This document shows, one piece after another, positions 1,454 to 14,570 of a DNA stretch of 64,000 bases (within the stretch, counting starts at the first letter, position 1; every line of letters begins with the position of its first letter). Below the pieces are notes generated by a model, which saw only the letters and a list, made by a program, of their open reading frames with translations, did not search any database and was not told where the DNA came from. The position numbers and the translations under genes are program-made. The stretch lies in contig JAHLKG010000009.1 in the NCBI GenBank assembly GCA_025526995.1, positions 248,001 through 312,000 on the forward strand. Reading direction: 5' to 3'. The stretch is from Powellomyces hirtus. Its lineage: Eukaryota > Chytridiomycota > Chytridiomycetes > Spizellomycetales > Powellomycetaceae.

Positions 1454-4400
1454 CGGTCGATGTAGATGTTCTTCGCAAGCTCGTCAGTTCCGTTCAGAGA
1501 AGTGATGTTGCGGCGGAGGAGCTCCCTGACGTTCTGGAGTTGTTGAGCGAGCTTGCAAATGTGGGTGTAGGAAGAACAATCGACACCCGCCACCTGAATT
1601 CTTAGACTTACTCGTTTCATAGCATCCCGCAGCTCGCGCCAATCTCGCGACGACAGGACTGTCGGATGTGCTTTGCACAATGGACAAAAAAGTCCTTCGT
1701 GAGGCGGCGCCCCTCGCACAGTTGCTGAAGGAAAGACTCCTGCATGCGGACATCAACGTGATTTCTCCAAAGTCCAAAGAAACCAGAGGCAGACCAGACT
1801 TCACGCCCATAAACTCTTCATGCAGAACAGGCCCAAACCGACCTCGACGCAGCGGCAGTCCCCAGAAGAGCCCCGTTCGATTTGCTCGTCCATTGAGCGC
1901 GCAAACAATTAGGTCGGGGGCTTCCCCGGTCCGATCTGCATATGAAGGTTTGTTGGCCATAAATCCTACGGGAAAACATCGGAATGCTAACGACAGTTAC
2001 AATAGCGTATCCCTCCACTCTACCTTATCTACCTAACGTCTTGCGCACATACGACTTGCTGGATCTTGGGCCCGGCGATGAAGACCTTTTCAACGAGTTC
2101 TGCGTCAATATGAACGCGGAAAGCCAGTATCAGACATTTCAGTCAATGATCTGTGATTTTGGTGCTGGAATCTTCCTCCAGAAGTCTCAGATGTTTTGGG
2201 TATACTCTGAAATTTCTGTACGCGGCGGCACGTCAGAGTACATCTAATGTCATACCCAGGTTATACTGCAGAATGCAAAGGCAGACCCGTCGTCTCAGTC
2301 TTTCGCATGTCTAGCCACGCTACTGAAAGAATGGCAAAGGGAGTTCCGCAAATCCGTGGATTCCTTACCTACTGTTAGACCGGTACCCAACGGCGCCGAT
2401 TTATCGCAGAGTTCTCACGGCAACTCAGCGTTCGCCGAACATGGCTCTATGCTCAGCGACTGCCCCATTTCTATTCCCTTCGCTTGCCACGAGATCTTTG
2501 TTGAACTGATTCCCCTGCTTCGCAAGACTGAAGCAGTACCATCAGTTCTCCGCATGCTGTACTTAACTCTTCCTTTCATAAAGATGCACGTGAGCATTGG
2601 ACTCGCTCTCTCACCTCGAGCAAACGAGGAGGCGACTGTCATTCATTATGTTGCTTCGATTTTGGAGATTGTGAAATATCTGGGAAAGGATACACGCGCA
2701 CATCAGCAACGCGTTGATGCGGATCAGATTCACACACCGAAGAGGCTGGTCACGTTTGCAATCAATGTATTCGCGGATTTATCGTCGTTAATTGAGGTAG
2801 ATTGTCGAGTCTTCGCTCGGAAGCAGTCGCAAATCAAATCTCCATTGTTTGAGTCTTCTCACATCGCTTCGTGTAGAATCCACAACATCTCTGGCAAAAG
2901 ATCCTGGATCTTTTCTCATGTCTGACCACCTGCACTGGCACAGTAGCTGAGCAGCTTCTCTCACAGCCCACCTCGCCAGCCAGAGACCGAACGCGTATCA
3001 GTTACGCCATGGATACGTTGCTAGCTTCGCAAAGCCATGCGCAGTTTCATGACGCTTTGGAAGCCCTACAGACGGCTTGTGTATGCCCAGCGGATGCCGA
3101 GGCTATTGACGAGTCCGCACTGACGAATATTCTCACAAGGTGCGTGTGGAACCATCATGGTATTTCTTCATGTCGAGTCTGACGCATCGATTTTTTGCAG
3201 AATATTGACTGTCCCACCGGCAAATGATGACGATATGACATTACTGTGCCGGATGCTGTTCTTTGTTGAAGAAGCCATGGAGTGGAACAAAGTGTCAATG
3301 GATGTTGATCATCTCTTGCTTCCAGCCTTCCAGCGATTGGTTCTGCCGATCTTGCGCAGAGGCCCGCAGGATCGTACCCGTCAAGAAGATACAGCGACGA
3401 TAAATATTGAGGAGCACATCCTACCCTTCGCTGTCCATCTCTTCTGGCGTCTTACGACGGATGCAATATCGCGCATCGAGACGCAAACCGATTGTGTCTC
3501 AGTTCTTACTGGTTGGATCCGACGGGCCTGTCATCCGGACAGGAACGCCAAGCCGTGGAACATCTGTCACGCTTTGGAGGTCCTTGCCGATTGCCTTGCG
3601 TTGCCTGGCATCTCGGGCCGTCTTGATGTAGACGTCCTGAAACATACCGTGGGCCTCCTGGTCTCGATAATCGCGGAACATCAGATGAGACGAGCACAAG
3701 AAGAGTCTCACTACATCAACCGAGGCATATATCTACGGTCTGCCATATGTCTCAGACTCGTCTGTCGCATCGGGACTGGCGCCAAAGGAGCGGACGAGGA
3801 TTGGATCTGGGGCAATCACTGGCTTCATGATGAGTCGTTTCAGTGGTTGGTAGGGCTCTTGGACGATCAAGATTCGGTCATGCAGAAGCTAGGAATGGGG
3901 ATCTTGGCCAACCTGGTCATCGTGGATCGTGCCCGACAAGCCTTGGAAGCAGAGATCCCGTTCTATGTAGAGGTTGCGCTGCAAACCTTTATGGACGTCA
4001 ATGGGGATCACGGTATTAGAAAGGAAGCTCTTTTATTGATCAAGAACGTCATTGTGTGTGCGGCAACATCCGACCAACAAATAGACGATACAGGCACACA
4101 AGAAGGCGGGAAGAATCATGCTCTACAACATGCCGTCTCAATGTTAATCGGAGGCGGATTCTTCCAGACCTTGCCATCTGCGCTTGCTTTGGATACCTCC
4201 TCAGTATGGCTTCGGGAAGGTCTTGCGGAGTTGCTGCTATGCCTGGTAATGGTGGCCCCGCAATACGTGTCACAAAGTTTCAGCGAACTCGACCTGTGGA
4301 ATGCTATAGTTCTTTCCCTCGATCACTCTTGGGATCGGCCAGTAACTGAGGAGATGCCAGAAATCTACCAGCGTTTCCAGAAGCGACAGCATCGGGATAC

Positions 4401-6644
4401 CCACTGGTCGATCGTTAGATCGTTCGGGGCCAACATGCTGCAAGTTCTGTGGATCCTGATGTGCGACAATCAGGAATTGCAGCTGCTCTTGCTAGAAAAG
4501 ACATTCATCTTGGATCGCGTGGGAAACACTTTACGGGATTGTTGGAGTGTTGTAAGCAGCGATGCTGTGCCGTCTGATCTGCGGGCCGTTGTGGAAGAGG
4601 TTCTTGAATCGGCTTTTCGTGTTTTGTGTGAGTTGCTTTTGCCCTGCGCAACCCACCGACAACGAGAATTGGAAGCCCTTTTTCACGAGCCAGAGACGGC
4701 CTTCGACACTGCCCGTGTAATAGCGTGGTCACTTTGCCGTGACTCCGACAGTCGTCTCCCGCGAGTGGCCGCCCAAGCGCTTTCTCGCCTCTTGGCAATT
4801 CACTGCGGGATGATGGCCGATCTGAACCTTTACACAGTGCTTGCAGCCAAGTGTGGCGGAGCAGGCGATAAGCGCGACGCACACCTCGGAGTCGTGATCT
4901 GCGACGCTCTGGCGAATGTGCTGTTTAAGTCGTATGAGGTGGAGGACCCAGTGTATATGGAGGCTGTGCGGCTTTCGCTGCAGTCCTTGCTTGGCTGTTG
5001 CGAATTTGTGAAGCTGCATGCCCTGCAATGTAAGTACCTGGTCTGACATCTTGCTAGAATGCGGTTTCTTCCTTAAGTCTTGGTCTAAACCTTCTCTTAC
5101 ATGTTTCTGTAGCCGGGATGATGACGTCCATGATTCGACGGCTTCAGTGTATTGCGGAACAAGCGGTACGGCATCATCAAGTGATTGTTTCAGATGTGTT
5201 ATTTCCACGCTAACCATGTTTCTCCCCCAGCAACCCTTGGATGATGCGCAGCTTCATGAGGTGTTTACTGTCTCTGCTCTCCTCCGGCATGCGCTCGCAG
5301 GTTCGAGTCAGATGAAGGTAAACAAACACACTCTTTCACACTGGGAAATACGCGGTCAATTTACAACATGTTCATGTCAGATCGCAGCCGGGAAGCAACG
5401 CCTCCACCTCCCATTCCAACACATTCTTGTTCGGAAAGAGTGCGGGGACATCCTGCTTCTGGAGGTTCTGCACTGCGTGCGCAACCTTATTGCCAACTGC
5501 ACCGTGACCAAAAAACTGCTGCTTGAAAACATCCCAACCAAACGTGTGCCGCACAACGTCACGTCGTCCATTGTCACCACCATCATCAGTCTCGTCAGAC
5601 AAAAAGCCACCTCCCTGCCAGTGTTCAATGCTGCATTTGAAGTCATGAAGCTGGTTGCGCTCGGTCAGGAGGCTAGGAGCGTCATGTGGAAGGTATGGTC
5701 GTCACGCATGCTTCCATCCTGTGTCTCATTGTAGGCTTACACGAGCTGGTTCCAGTCAAATATTGGCGCAACCATCTGTACCATCCTCTCCAACCTCGCC
5801 AAATCAAAGGAACACGTGAAAATGCAATCCGTCCTGGAATTCTTTTGCAACTCTACCTACGCTGCCGACGGGCAATTGCACATGATGCGCATTGACGGTA
5901 TGCCTGGCCAATGGATCATCGTGAGCGGCCCCCTTGGAGCGGGCAACTGTCTTACAACCTCTCCCGTTGCTACCCGGCTTTAGGCGCTTTTGATCTGTTC
6001 CTCAACCTCGCAGCCACCGGGCGCACAGTGTCCATCAAACGCACCGCGGTGCAGATCCTGCGCAACTTGGCCGTGGCGAAAGAAAACCAACCTCACTTTT
6101 TGTTGAGTGGTAAGTGGCCTTTGACAGCAGTAAACGATGCGGGACTTGGGTTCTCATAAAATGTCAATGTCTGTCTATCATGTGCAGCGACCTTTGTCCC
6201 AACCATCCGCAGTCTGATCGGCAACAAGAGTTTGGATATCCTGGCGCCCACAACAGGTCTGCTCCGCGTCTTGCTATATGACAGTGAGAAGGTAAATTGT
6301 ACTTCCGTCATCCCACACCAACCACGCTCCTAATTAGCTCCCCCGCTAACATCATTCATTTGCAGAGCAAGGTCGCCCTGAAACGCGAGATGCTAGGTGA
6401 AGATCTGACCCAGTTTCGCCAACGGCTTCAATCAGGTATGAGAAAAGCCGTCCGTCTGGATCCAAATTACCCCTATATATATCTCTCTAACCCCTCCCAT
6501 TATATAGAATACGCAGCTGTGCTTCATCGAAACGGATCGGCAGAAGCCGCCTTGGATGCACCCATTCCCGAGCAGGATTTGGTGCTGCTGCATGAGACGA
6601 TGAAACATTTGGATATTGTAAATGGGGCGTTGGCAGATGGATGA
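1454..6644 (+). CDS. RTTN: Rotatin-like armadillo-repeat centriole protein
   Basis: Large helical-repeat protein of roughly 1,400 residues encoded by many exons; the longest single reading frame is 3157-5046. In animals rotatin (fly Ana3) acts in centriole assembly and basal-body integrity. The call rests on the C-terminal third (about 5640-6450): it reads as armadillo helices with a segment about cognate repeats and unaffected neighbours (RTAVQILRNLAVAKENQPH) and ends with an SKVALKRE stretch like the end of rotatin. The N-terminal part (1454-2900) is also alpha-helical repeat but less distinctive. Visible joins include a donor near 1562 with acceptor near 1627 and short introns near 5690, 6110, 6290 and 6436. 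The initiating exon is not identified, so the start is the first exon I can support. The protein is shorter than the human one (about 2,200 residues). Another ARM/HEAT scaffold is the main alternative. Confidence 0.55.
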
Positions 6645-7299: not shown

Positions 7300-10200
7300 T
7301 TACTGCAGCTCAACAAGCGCACGACGCATATCCGGCATCATGGGACCAAAATTCCCAGCACATCCGTTGCCAATGCTCCCTAAGGCCTTCACTTGCCACC
7401 TGTCCGTCGGAGTCCTACGCCACAGCACACACATGACGATGTTGGTCTTGGCACCCAAAGAGGTGGTGGGGAGAAAGTTATATTGGCAGAGTGGGGTCAT
7501 TGTGGTTTCGTCTTTGCGGTCTGGGGCTTGGAATCTATGGAGATTTGGGTAGGTGTCAATGTTGGGATCCATTTGGAAGAAAGGCAAAAAAAAACACCAA
7601 GTACTAAATAAAAGAAATACAGAAACTTACTTGACAGTAGGCTGCTTGATGTCAGTCAAGGGCACATAATAACCCGACATGCAAAACACCATCGACTTGA
7701 CTTTTTTGGAGAGTTTTCTGACATTGATCGTGATCGTGTGCGTCCCCTGCCGCAAGGTGTTGTCGATCAGGTCACCGCTGTGAATGATGCAGCCTTCTTG
7801 GCCCCATGTGTTGCAATAAGTGATGTGTTCCATGTGTTGATCTGGAGCGGGGATGGAAAAGTTAGTTTCTGCAATGGCCAATGGCGGGAGAAGAAAAAGT
7901 CCAGCCTACTTTTGAAATCAAACACTGAACAAGTAGCATCCAGATACGCAGTGTGGTCCGTCCCCCACCGCCACGTCTCCTCCATGACGACCGTCTCCAG
8001 ATCCGGTGGTGCGCTGAACGATTCACCCTTAAGCAAGATGCTGGAGACACCCGATCTATGGACGCGGGAGAAATCCATGCCGCGGGTATGGTACCCCTTT
8101 CGCAACGAATTCCGCACAGCTTGCCACCAGTGGGCTGTGGATTGTTGGGGCGTGGGCACTGGGGCGACGCCGCAGGCTTGGTAGTAGTGCGGCCAAAAGT
8201 CAATGTTCAGCATTCGTTTGGTGTGCGATTGGAATTCATCAACCACTAGTTTTGGAGTACGTCCGTATAGCACTTCACTGCACCGTGCAAATCCGCTATC
8301 CATGTAACCCATCGCATGGACATGGAACATTATCAACCTCCTGGAAACCAACCCGGCGCTCCACACGTTTTTCAAAAGCTCCATGTCCGGCTTCCTACAG
8401 GGTCCCGCGGGGATTTTCGCAAGGTGAGGGAACTTTGCACATACCCACAAAACAGAACGGTCCGCCAATTCTCCCAGGAAAGCATTTTGGACTCGTGGGT
8501 CCGACGCCGACGACCATTTGAAGACACGCGAGACAGTGAGGAGCGGGAGAAGGTGACCGAGCGACGGCACTGCATTCTTGTGGCGGTTATTGTCTGTCCC
8601 CATGACGAAGGCACCTATGCGATTTTCCACCTCGTTCTGCAGAGCTGGGTAGGTATCCACGAACGCAGCCATCAGCCTGTGGAGGAGGAAATAACCCTCC
8701 AACGCATGACTTGACGCCGCAATGCCTTTATCGCACAAAAGCACGATAAGCGTGTTCATCATTTTAGCAAGGACATCCAGTGCCATATCGGGTCTGAAGA
8801 TCGAAGTCCCCCGTTCCGGTGACATCTTGACCATGAACCGTTCAATGTCGGGTCGTGCACGCAGGAAATGCTCTTGCGTGATGTACAACGGCATCCATTC
8901 CGTAAACTTTTCGTTCCAGACGGTTGTGCGTACCTTGTCGGTGTGGAACGCGCTTCGACTGAGGAGTTCTACCTGGCAGGAGATGTAGTCTACGGCTTTA
9001 GTTTTTGGGTTGATGGTGTAGGTGACGGGAACGCCAAGGACGTCTTCTTCCCAAGTGAGTTTTGTAGCAAAGCATCGCATTTCTTCCGTCACACAGTTGA
9101 CTTCGAGTGCGAATGCCGTCTTCCAATCTGCGAGACCCGCGGCCGTGATGGAGGAAGACGATGCAGTGGCGGCGATGCCTCCTTGTCCATGACGTTGTTT
9201 GAAGAGAGATCGCCAGAGATGGCCGTCCTGGCAGACAGTGTACATGTGTCTGCATGTCTGTGAAAGACGGAGGACGTCGGTTGCGGATAGGATCGAGGAT
9301 GCGGCGATATGTAAGATCACTTCATAAGGAAGTTTGGAGAACCGCCCAGCGTTGCGGATACTGGCTGGAGTTGTAGCGAGAAGCGGGTCGCGCTCGTGTG
9401 CGGCCGCACTATTCCCATCCTTGGTGTCGGCTGGCTTGGCAGTTACGGGAAGTGCCACTTGAAGCGCCTGCAGCTCAGACAGACTGGTCGGGATCTCTCG
9501 CATCGTAAACGTTTTGGATGGAACGCGCTTTTTCTTGGCCTCTTCTGTCTTGAGTTTCTTGAGCTTATTGGCATCTTCTTTCAAAAGAAGCTGCTGGGGG
9601 TCCACGTCGGATGATGAGAGTGCCGCCCAGTACGAAGTCTGCACAACCTGATTAGTTGACTTGATTCCTGCGCTCTTCTTATCCACAACGACATCGTCCG
9701 TCTTCTTGATTTTTTTCTCTTCCCCCACAACACCCATTTTCCCCGTCCTCCTCCTCGACTGTACAACCGTCCACTCCTCCGTCTCTCTCACACTGTTCAC
9801 CACGGCCACTGATTTCCAAACAAATGGTTCAGCAGCGGGGGCCATTTCCGTCATCTTCTTCTGCATCTGCATCTGCTGGTTCCTCGGTACAGCTCTTCGC
9901 CGAATAACAACCACCGGCGCCTTCTTCTTCATGTCCTCTTTGGTGGGGAAGGACGGCCACGGCTTAGCGAATGAATGGGTGCATTTTCCGCACTCGAAGG
10001 TCTGGGCACGGTGGAGGGCTGTGCGCATGTCCCCGTTCGCTTGGGTAAATTGGAAGGATGGGTCGAAGATGAAGGCTAGCGGGGTGTATGGGGCAAAGTA
10101 TTAGTTTCATTTGATCATGTCGCTCACACAAGAGAGAGAGAGAGCCAAAAGCGTACCTTGCAACTGCCTCAAGACACTAGCGACCGTATAACAACTCGAC

Positions 10201-10535
10201 CACCCTTCATACGGGTCCATCTTCCCACTATCCAACATATCCAAACAGATGCGATACCCTCCTAGGCTCTGTACGACATTCGCATGCGGAATAGGTGTAC
10301 ACAGCGTAACACTGGGGGGTTGCAAAGGGTAACTTTTCGGAAAGACCAGGACGAGATGTAGGGTCAGGTTAGTGTTGGTGGGATTGCGAAGGTTGGCGTG
10401 CCATTCGTAGATGGTACTGTCGAGCGGGTGCGCGGAGATGTGACGGTCGATGGGGCAAGTGGAGACTTCGGTGTAGTCGCGGAGGAGACGGCGGGTGGCG
10501 GTGGGGAGATGCATTGCGGTGGCTTGGGATGACAT
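7300..10535 (-). CDS. E2 ubiquitin-conjugating / F-box / TerD fusion protein
   Basis: Four exons join in frame: 10157-10535, 7910-10075, 7631-7868 and 7300-7534, giving about 1,005 residues. Residues 1-150 form a UBC (E2) domain with the catalytic cysteine in RICLDML and a HAN motif in place of the usual HPN, followed by a GWSS...VLRQLQ segment. A Cys-x2-Cys pair (ECGKC) follows. Residues 160-350 are basic, Lys/Gln-rich and probably disordered. Residues about 372-415 match an F-box (KLPYEVILHIA...LSQTCRHMY...LWRSLF). After a long middle region, residues about 820-1005 match a TerD-type calcium-binding stress domain: LKGESFS, W-x2-W, YLDATCSVF, IIHSGD, INVRKLSKKVKSMVF and a terminal WQVKALGSI. 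The start has a good E2 N terminus. By family knowledge, an E2 charges ubiquitin and an F-box binds SKP1/cullin, so the protein could couple both steps, with TerD as sensor or substrate binder; that is inference. The third intron-free junction chain keeps phase throughout. The intron at 7869-7909 is only 41 bp. Confidence 0.8.
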
Positions 10536-11990: not shown

Positions 11991-14570
11991 TTAGCACGTC
12001 GTGTACACTTTTCCTAAATCTGCATCCCAAATCTTCACCTTATATCGCGGTCCCTTGACCGGGAAAACCGCAAGCGAAGCCATAAACAACCCTATCCCAA
12101 TACTCATTCCAATCATCAACATTTCAAACACCACCTGCATCGAATCCGCCCTCTGCTCTCCGAAAAACCCCAGGGTGGCGCGCACACCCATGCTCCCCGG
12201 AACCAGCTGAACGATCCCGACAATGATGGCGGGAACGGCCACGTCCTTGGTCAGGCGGGCGTAAATGTTGGAAGCCACACCGATCACGAACGCTGCGAGA
12301 GCGTTAGGGACAATCTGGCCCGCGGAGGATTGGAATTGTTTGGGGATGGAAAGCGCGAGATAGGAGATCCAGCCCAGCGTCGCGACAACCGACACATGCA
12401 GCCACTGTTTTCGGTGCGCGTTGAATGAGCAAATAAAACATGCGCATAGGGGTGGATACAGGACAAAGCTCCATAAAGGACTCAGTTGGCTGTCCCCACA
12501 TCCGTGAATCGCGGCTTCAAGGTCGGAAGGACTCCACGATACCAATGCCCTTCCCGCCGATATACCGAATCCCAGCAGCATTGCTTATGACGAAAAAGCG
12601 GTTTGAGACCCAGGGAAAACCAAGCGGGGATAGAACGGGCATACCATGAAAAAGGGCAGAAAAGAGACGCACGGTCCCAGACACCATGTTTTTGGTCGCG
12701 ATTTCAATCAGCGATATCGTTATGGAAAGACCCTGGATATTATGATCAGTTCGCATGCACAGTAGATGCAAGAACCTCTCAATGTGGGCATCACTTACTG
12801 GCATCATCATGACCAGGGAGCTCAAAACTACGGGAACGTGATGATAGCAAAATGTCGGATAGTATGCAAGCAGTATGGTCATCAAACAGCGCGATGCAAA
12901 GCTGCAGAACAGAGCTGCGAGGAACGGAATGAGGTGCGTGAACTCGCGGATTCTGATGCGAAAACAGAGACAAAAAGAAACGGGTTGTCATTCATTAGCA
13001 ACCGCTTCGCAATTGTGCAAGAATGACCACATGAAACGAAAATTGGCCGAACCTACTACTGAACACGTTAACGCAACCAACCAGGGCTCCCAGCACACAC
13101 GCAACAACCGCATCAATCCATGTCCCACCAAACCCCAGCACGCAAATAATGAACGAAATGGTGGGGTACGTCAACCATTCGCACCAGACGGGGTAGCTGT
13201 GTTCCGCAGCAATTTCTCCCAATCGGTTGATGGCGTTGGAGATGTCCATTTCTCCAGCAATGACGCTTTTGCACAGCTGGTTCACTAGCGAGAGTTTCCA
13301 CATGTGCCATGAAAGGCTAACTTTGATGAGATGTGTGGTGGATTGGTGGTCTTCGTCCCCAAACGATATCCAAATAACTCCTGTTTATGCAATAACTCAA
13401 TGCGATACTCGGAAAGGACAGCACCCAGTCGCATCAGACTTTCCGACCACACGTACCTGGAATAACCACAAAGCTAGCCGGCTGCTCCAGCGCCAGCGCC
13501 ACCAACTCCATCATGTACTCAATCCTATGACTCGGCGCTCCATATTTCGCAAACGCGCGGGTCAGACTCATCAGGAAATCCCGAGTCCTCACCCGTTGCG
13601 CTTTGCTCAACCCGGTAAACATGGTCACAGTTGATTTCCAATGCCGCCGGGGTGGTTTGTCTGCCAGATCCGTGTACGTCTGATCTGCATCATAAATATG
13701 ATCATGCAAGTCCAAAATCTCGTCTTCGGTCATGGAGGTGGTCCGCTCCACATCACTCCCGTAGGCAGGACGGTTCGGGTTCACGGCGGAGGTGAAGACA
13801 GAGTTTGTGGTGAAAGTACTCTGTTGCCGACGCGGACCCGGCAGGAAACTGAACAGACTACCATTAATACTGATCTGCCGGCTGACAGGTGCAAGATCAC
13901 CAGCCTCCGTGGTCGGTACACGACTGGGACATCCAGCACAATGGGAATTGAAGTTGCATCCGCCATGTGGCTCCTCTGCCGGCAGGTCTCGTCGCGCACC
14001 ACTGTACATGCTCGCCGCATCCGTGTCCGATTCCTCAGCAATTTGTGGCACGTGCTCATGCCCTGCCCTGCGTGGAACATTGGGAAGTGTGCTGGCGCGA
14101 CGCGGAATCTCGGCCGTGGAAAGAATTTTGCGCAGAGGTCTGGCGATCAAAAGACCAGGGCCGTCATCAAATCGCAGTCGTTGCGGGGGATGATTGTCGG
14201 GGAAACTTGCGGTTGACGGTGATAACGAGAAGGGTGGTAGCTGGCTGGGCCGATGACCTTGTTCCATACTACCATCGTTGGGCTTCTCTCCACCCAGCTG
14301 GTCTTCCCATTTGACCCTAGCTTCGCCGGCGCCATGTGTCGTTCCCGATAGATCGCGAGGCTCTGGATCCTCAGCATCAGTTGCCGTTTGTGGTTTGATT
14401 AAGGCCTCCAACGACGACACATGCTGGGTATTCACACTATCATCACTCTCGGCCTTCCCAAGTCCTCTCGGGTCCGGATCTTCATCGACTGACTCGGGGC
14501 TGTTATCAACTCCAGAGATGGCGCTTGCTCCCGTAGATCTTCGGCGTATAAAAGTTTCCTTGTTCGACAT
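11991..14570 (-). CDS. ThrE/Prm10-family membrane protein
   Basis: Multi-exon gene encoding a protein of roughly 800 residues. The first exon (about 13455-14570) encodes a long hydrophilic N-terminal region rich in Ser, Pro, Asp and Arg, then enters the conserved domain with RDFLMSLTRAFAKYGAPSHRIEY and LEQPASFVVIPG. Later exons (about 12995-13390, 12517-12950 and 11991-12440) encode successive membrane helices. These include the hallmark stretch LSITISLIEIATKNMVSGTVR and a last half with IPNALAAFVIG-like and VPGSMGVRATLGFF segments. This order matches the ThrE/YjjP (DUF1212 plus DUF3815) family, which includes the yeast pheromone-regulated membrane protein Prm10 and bacterial threonine/serine exporters. 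Transport of small amino acids is family inference; fungal members are poorly characterised. The gene is divergent from the CUE-domain gene across a 224-bp shared upstream region. Confidence 0.8.

Follow-up and report, generated by a model that had tools for sequence, protein, structure and literature searches.

An E2 protein predicted to carry an F-box and a TerD domain in Powellomyces hirtus

Ubiquitin-conjugating (E2) enzymes and substrate receptors are normally separate partners in SCF complexes. E2 proteins with further domains have been described: BIRC6 is an E2 with extra domains, or E2/E3 hybrid, and in fungal proteomes some E2-like proteins are annotated as having additional domains. 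F-box receptors do not absolutely require a WD40, LRR or Kelch repeat. Ter-derived domains are already known in eukaryotes. In Dictyostelium such a domain forms the C-terminal half of the proteins CapA and CapB, according to the available part of PMC3188802, and the trypanosome proteins FAZ28 and FAZ30 have a TerD domain, according to the available part of PMC10953051.

The window, a stretch of 64,000 nucleotides from Powellomyces hirtus, lies on contig C9 of a genome of 29.3 Mb in 60 contigs. A gene of four exons is predicted on the minus strand at 10535-7300, with its ATG at 10535, and encodes 996 residues (Table 1). An earlier note, made from the letters of the window, had placed a single protein with an E2, an F-box and a TerD domain at 7300..10535. 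These coordinates are borne out, and the three domains are found in one predicted chain, each over its Pfam curated cut-off in the spliced product. Pfam thus detects the two domains for which the note had called for profile searches, the F-box at 45.6 bits and TerD at 30.5 bits. E2s fused to other domains are already known; what appears to be unusual here, judged from sequence, is the presence of an F-box and a TerD domain in an E2 chain. The three-domain combination was not found in the literature searched. No paper in that literature was found to name TerD and F-box together, or TerD, F-box, ubiquitin-conjugating and fungi together, and the available parts of the ubiquitin-system surveys PMC2408969, PMC11354881 and PMC4327156 describe no E2-F-box fusion. 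No relatives were confirmed in viral and prokaryotic contig collections, a result that says little about fungi.

Table 1. Predicted features of the gene and its paralogue; positions are those of the window unless a contig is named
Feature	Position	Strand	Description
Exon 1	10157..10535	-	From the start codon into the E2 domain; contains catalytic-position Cys97
Intron 1	10076..10156	-	81 nt, GT-AG
Exon 2	7910..10075	-	E2 end, CxxC, linker, F-box, middle domain, first portion of TerD; open over its whole length
Intron 2	7842..7909	-	68 nt, GT-AG
Exon 3	7631..7841	-	TerD, middle part
Intron 3	7535..7630	-	96 nt, GT-AG
Exon 4	7300..7534	-	TerD C-terminal part and stop codon
UBC (E2) domain	10053..10490	-	Residues 16-134, split by intron 1; UQ_con 52.5 bits, cut-off 27
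Catalytic-position Cys97 codon	10245..10247	-	Motif HAN...RICLDML
CxxC pair Cys155, Cys158	9981..9992	-	Just after the E2 fold; by eye
F-box	9198..9341	-	Residues 372-419; F-box-like 45.6 bits, cut-off 24.3
Unnamed middle domain	8316..9095	-	Residues 454-713, common to the paralogue
TerD domain	7351..8009	-	Residues 816-980, split by introns 2 and 3; 30.5 bits, cut-off 25.3
Paralogue	G000:C3:662275-664588	minus 3187-874 of L013 (G000:C3:661402-665208)	746 residues, one 73-nt intron

The splicing of the TerD region was assessed with a profile made from five bacterial TerD sequences, without any fungal sequence. On this profile the 996-residue splice scores 49.7 bits, against 33.3 bits when intron 3 is kept and -0.6 bits when intron 2 is kept; exons 3 and 4 alone reach 22.8 and 16.6 bits, and the parts of the profile that they match follow one another. 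These scores of spliced versus retained forms give good support to introns 2 and 3. Exon 2 alone scores -1.7 bits, and when joined to exon 3 it gives 33.3 rather than 22.8 bits; because the exon 2 part adds about 10 bits, exon 2 is taken to continue into the TerD domain. The 1,005-residue model of the earlier note used a poorer intron 2 acceptor (an intron of 41 nt, ending at 7869) and scores 42.1 bits, and was dropped for the model with the 68-nt intron 2. The F-box and the middle domain lie within one open frame of exon 2 (stop to stop 7767-10100). Between the E2 and the F-box is a lysine-rich linker of 205 residues (166-370; 12.7% Lys) that has no cysteine. Two structure predictions from single sequences had mean pLDDT values of 49.1 and 41.5, too poor to use, and the E2 model gave no Foldseek fold match at E 0.001.

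Other open frames of the window were also compared with Pfam. A frame of 640 residues on the plus strand (3124-5046), past the gene's 3′ end, matches nothing in Pfam at E 0.01. On the minus strand, frames at 11991-12584 and 12517-12987 match ThrE_2 (59.2 bits, over the cut-off) and ThrE (below it), which are threonine/serine exporter families; the two frames are perhaps one gene split by an intron. The genome has at least 33 chitin synthase matches (best 764.5 bits), with a profile that also gives matches in four of 14 bacterial genomes used as controls. Radial spoke matches are present as well (best 147.9 bits), with a profile that matches none of the 14. Together these matches make the source most likely a fungus that has a flagellated stage.

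Profile scans of the genome were run exon by exon with the best candidates scored, and the match counts that follow are not gene counts: the F-box is the fourth best of the 68 F-box-like matches listed, and the RBX1 profile zf-rbx1 has 19 matches, 12 of which are marked as over the cut-off. The place of this F-box among the best in the genome suggests that it is kept in use. The Pfam sister model F-box scores 19.5 bits on the same residues, just under its cut-off of 20.5. Profile searches also found two loci with SKP1-like sequences and four cullin loci above the cut-off. Only one of 28 E2 matches, that of the window gene, lies less than 5 kb from one of the 68 listed F-box matches; the next-nearest pair is 9.8 kb apart. 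Of the client-binding repeats, WD40, LRR and Kelch are not detected by Pfam at E up to 1 in the whole protein, or at E up to 10 in residues 454-789 alone.

Two further features, both absent from the earlier note, are a middle domain in the protein and a paralogue elsewhere in the genome that shares it. Pfam gives no match for the middle region at E up to 10, in a search from which HMMER filters remove most weak hits, and PDB gives none at E up to 1. When the whole protein was compared with the genome, a single further locus matched this region (residues 451-714 at C3:662902-663708, 31% identity, E 4e-21); the other matches were to the gene itself, and weak ones to the E2 or F-box parts. In a reverse search with the paralogue, the middle domain matched nothing besides the paralogue itself and the window gene. 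Across their full alignment the two proteins are 29% identical. The middle domains align with a score of 272 (shuffle mean 33.1), the E2 parts with 112 (shuffle mean 28.0) and the stretches beyond the middle domain with 54 (shuffle mean 25.2), and none of 1000 shuffles reached the score in any of the three comparisons. The UBC domain of the paralogue scores 46.0 bits and has a cysteine at the catalytic position, in the motif YICCDIL.

Pfam lists no F-box in the paralogue and finds no TerD domain there at E up to 1. A stretch that looks F-box-like by eye (paralogue residues 226-276) was rejected, as 820 of 1000 shuffles align globally as well. A CxxC also follows the E2 of the paralogue by eye; a conserved CxxC was likewise rejected, the local alignment not being significant (124 of 1000 shuffles as good). 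A W-x-x-V stretch followed by arginines is seen in both proteins, as EEWTVVQSRRR in the linker of the window protein and as EGWEKVTTRRKK after the middle domain of the paralogue; these stretches sit at different places and, being noted by eye, may be due to chance. The E2 and the middle domain probably represent the older core of the protein. Because the paralogue has the middle domain without a detectable F-box or TerD, the comparison suggests that the partnership of F-box and E2 is not this core.

It is proposed that the gene encodes a multidomain, active E2 that carries its own client-binding module and is docked on an SCF complex by its F-box. This is the preferred reading, at somewhat less than an even chance. 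The middle domain, perhaps with TerD, would bind a client, while the F-box would hold the protein on SKP1-CUL1. The E2, on its long tether, would be charged by E1 and would then meet RBX1 of the same complex or pass ubiquitin to the client in cis; the 205-residue linker would be long enough for movement between E1, RBX1 and client. TerD would act as a binding or locating module and not as a calcium sensor. This proposal is consistent with the retention of E2 and middle domain together in two divergent paralogues, and with the SKP1-like, cullin and RBX1-profile sequences of the genome. Against it may be set the HPN motif, which is read as HAN, and the join of exons 1 and 2, which appears moderately supported.

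The strongest competing reading is an E2/E3 hybrid of the UBE2O type, in which the E2 and the middle domain would ubiquitinate clients without a cullin and the F-box would serve, for example, SCF turnover of the enzyme itself or SKP1 binding outside SCF. This is a serious possibility, with a probability clearly short of even. Such hybrids exist, UBE2O being one (PMC12109548, available part). The paralogue, which keeps the E2 and the middle domain, points the same way: because it has no detectable F-box, the core of E2 and middle domain may work without SCF. The rank of the F-box in the genome, suggestive of maintained use, argues against a hybrid of this kind, as does a middle domain that resembles nothing of known function in Pfam or PDB.

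As to the E2 domain itself, exon 1 alone matches UQ_con at 52.5 bits when the genome is scanned in six frames, and residues 1-162 match 229 PDB sequences at E 0.001, the best being UBE2J2 (4.8e-13); the 60 listed of these 229 are all ubiquitin-conjugating enzymes or UBC-domain proteins by name. The earlier note had proposed a catalytic cysteine, and an alignment with solved E2s and with seven E2s of the same genome, out of eight examined and 28 exon-level E2 matches, is in agreement. Cys97 falls on the cysteine of the ICLDIL-type motif in the two solved E2s aligned and on the motif cysteine of the seven others, a column that presumably holds the catalytic cysteine of E2s. In the HPN motif His84 and Asn86 are in place and proline is replaced by alanine; the HPN of the paralogue is intact. 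The spacing from Cys to Trp is seven residues longer than in an E2 of the same genome that we take to be RAD6-like (L001), and another E2 of this genome (L005) has a longer insertion at this place. Cys97, His84, Asn86 and the Cys-Trp insertion are all compatible with E2 activity. It is nevertheless conceivable, though unlikely, that the UBC fold is a pseudo-E2 that binds ubiquitin or a partner E2 and carries no ubiquitin, the protein then being an F-box receptor with an E2-like scaffold. The HAN of the window copy, the tyrosine that replaces tryptophan after the Cys loop in the paralogue and the divergent E2 sequence would fit such a role, but Cys, His and Asn remain, and the paralogue also retains the cysteine.

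The join of exons 1 and 2 appears to be the weakest link of the predicted gene model, with moderate support. An E2 profile barely distinguishes the two forms across intron 1 (45.0 bits spliced, 44.3 unspliced). The RAD6-like E2 prefers the splice, with alignment scores of 153 versus 140, and the gap in its own gene is likewise 81 nt long, the length of intron 1. The best further support comes from the paralogue, where an open frame of 672 codons runs uninterrupted from the active-site region onward and includes the middle domain. It is very improbable that the locus consists of two genes, one for a short E2 of 142 residues with intron 1 unspliced and the other for an F-box-middle-TerD protein starting at an internal Met of exon 2, since the near-equal E2 profile scores and the non-significant paralogue alignment just after the E2 (the 124 of 1000 shuffles) that would allow this are opposed by the RAD6-like alignment across the junction, the single open frame of the paralogue and a GT-AG intron 1 equal in length to the gap of the RAD6-like gene.

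A tblastn search of plasmids with the TerD piece (E up to 10) matched 2,402 records, and in the best 20 of these a TerD/TerZ gene lies beneath the match in every case; eight of the 20 listed are at E ≤0.01 (best 5e-8, Deinococcus) and the remaining 12 range from E 0.2 to 1. The piece has no PDB match at E 1 and a single NCBIfam match (E 0.074, 11.2 bits, cut-off 600). A six-frame TerD search of the genome gave no match, probably because introns split the domain.

The earlier note had suggested that stress or calcium might be sensed through TerD. In the available part of PMC8779313, the TerD of K. pneumoniae is reported, after Pan et al. 2011, to have two calcium sites, formed by residues 40, 41, 42, 78, 79 and 89 and by residues 29, 82, 84 and 88. 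This numbering was transferred through a Polaromonas TerD (L021:182-754), which matches the solved TerD 2kxt over 1-190 on 1-190 (267.6 bits), a match that we infer to be gap-free from equal ends. By these published positions, four of ten are kept in the window TerD (Trp29, Leu41, Asp42, Asp78); residues 40, 79, 82, 84, 88 and 89 are Tyr, Leu, Asn, Leu, Thr and His. All ten are kept in each of the five bacterial TerDs aligned. With six of the ten reported positions changed, against none in the five bacterial TerDs, calcium sensing by the window TerD is unlikely, and the calcium part of the suggestion was given up.

A broader proposal joins this result to the docked E2 that is preferred above. 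The protein may represent a naturally occurring SCF receptor that comes with a charged E2 of its own, with a TerD domain turned from calcium binding to another task; taken as a whole, this is possible if rather doubtful. The choice of E2 would be hard-wired to the substrate receptor, the F-box sitting on SKP1-CUL1 and the E2 discharging onto the client or being activated by RBX1. A natural fusion of E2 and receptor would permit a direct test of how a hard-wired E2 affects chain type or speed, and targeted degradation could take it as a natural template. The middle domain, which accompanies an E2 in two divergent paralogues, is a candidate for a new client-binding domain.

Among known systems, UBE2O and BIRC6 resemble the window protein in having a UBC domain inside a long chain of several domains that could choose its clients itself. 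They differ in that the window protein has its UBC domain at the N-terminus and a middle domain that Pfam does not match, and to our knowledge neither UBE2O nor BIRC6 has an F-box or a TerD domain. The F-box receptors of SCF complexes share with it the order of an F-box and then a presumed client-binding region, whereas the window protein lacks Pfam-detected WD40, LRR or Kelch repeats and has an E2 fused in front. CapA and CapB (PMC3188802) and FAZ28 and FAZ30 (PMC10953051) are likewise eukaryotic and carry a Ter-derived or TerD domain, but no E2 or F-box is mentioned for them in the available parts of these sources. A further likeness is in the same genome: the paralogue, which at 746 residues is without a detectable F-box or TerD, has an E2 with a cysteine at the catalytic position followed by the same middle domain at 31% identity.
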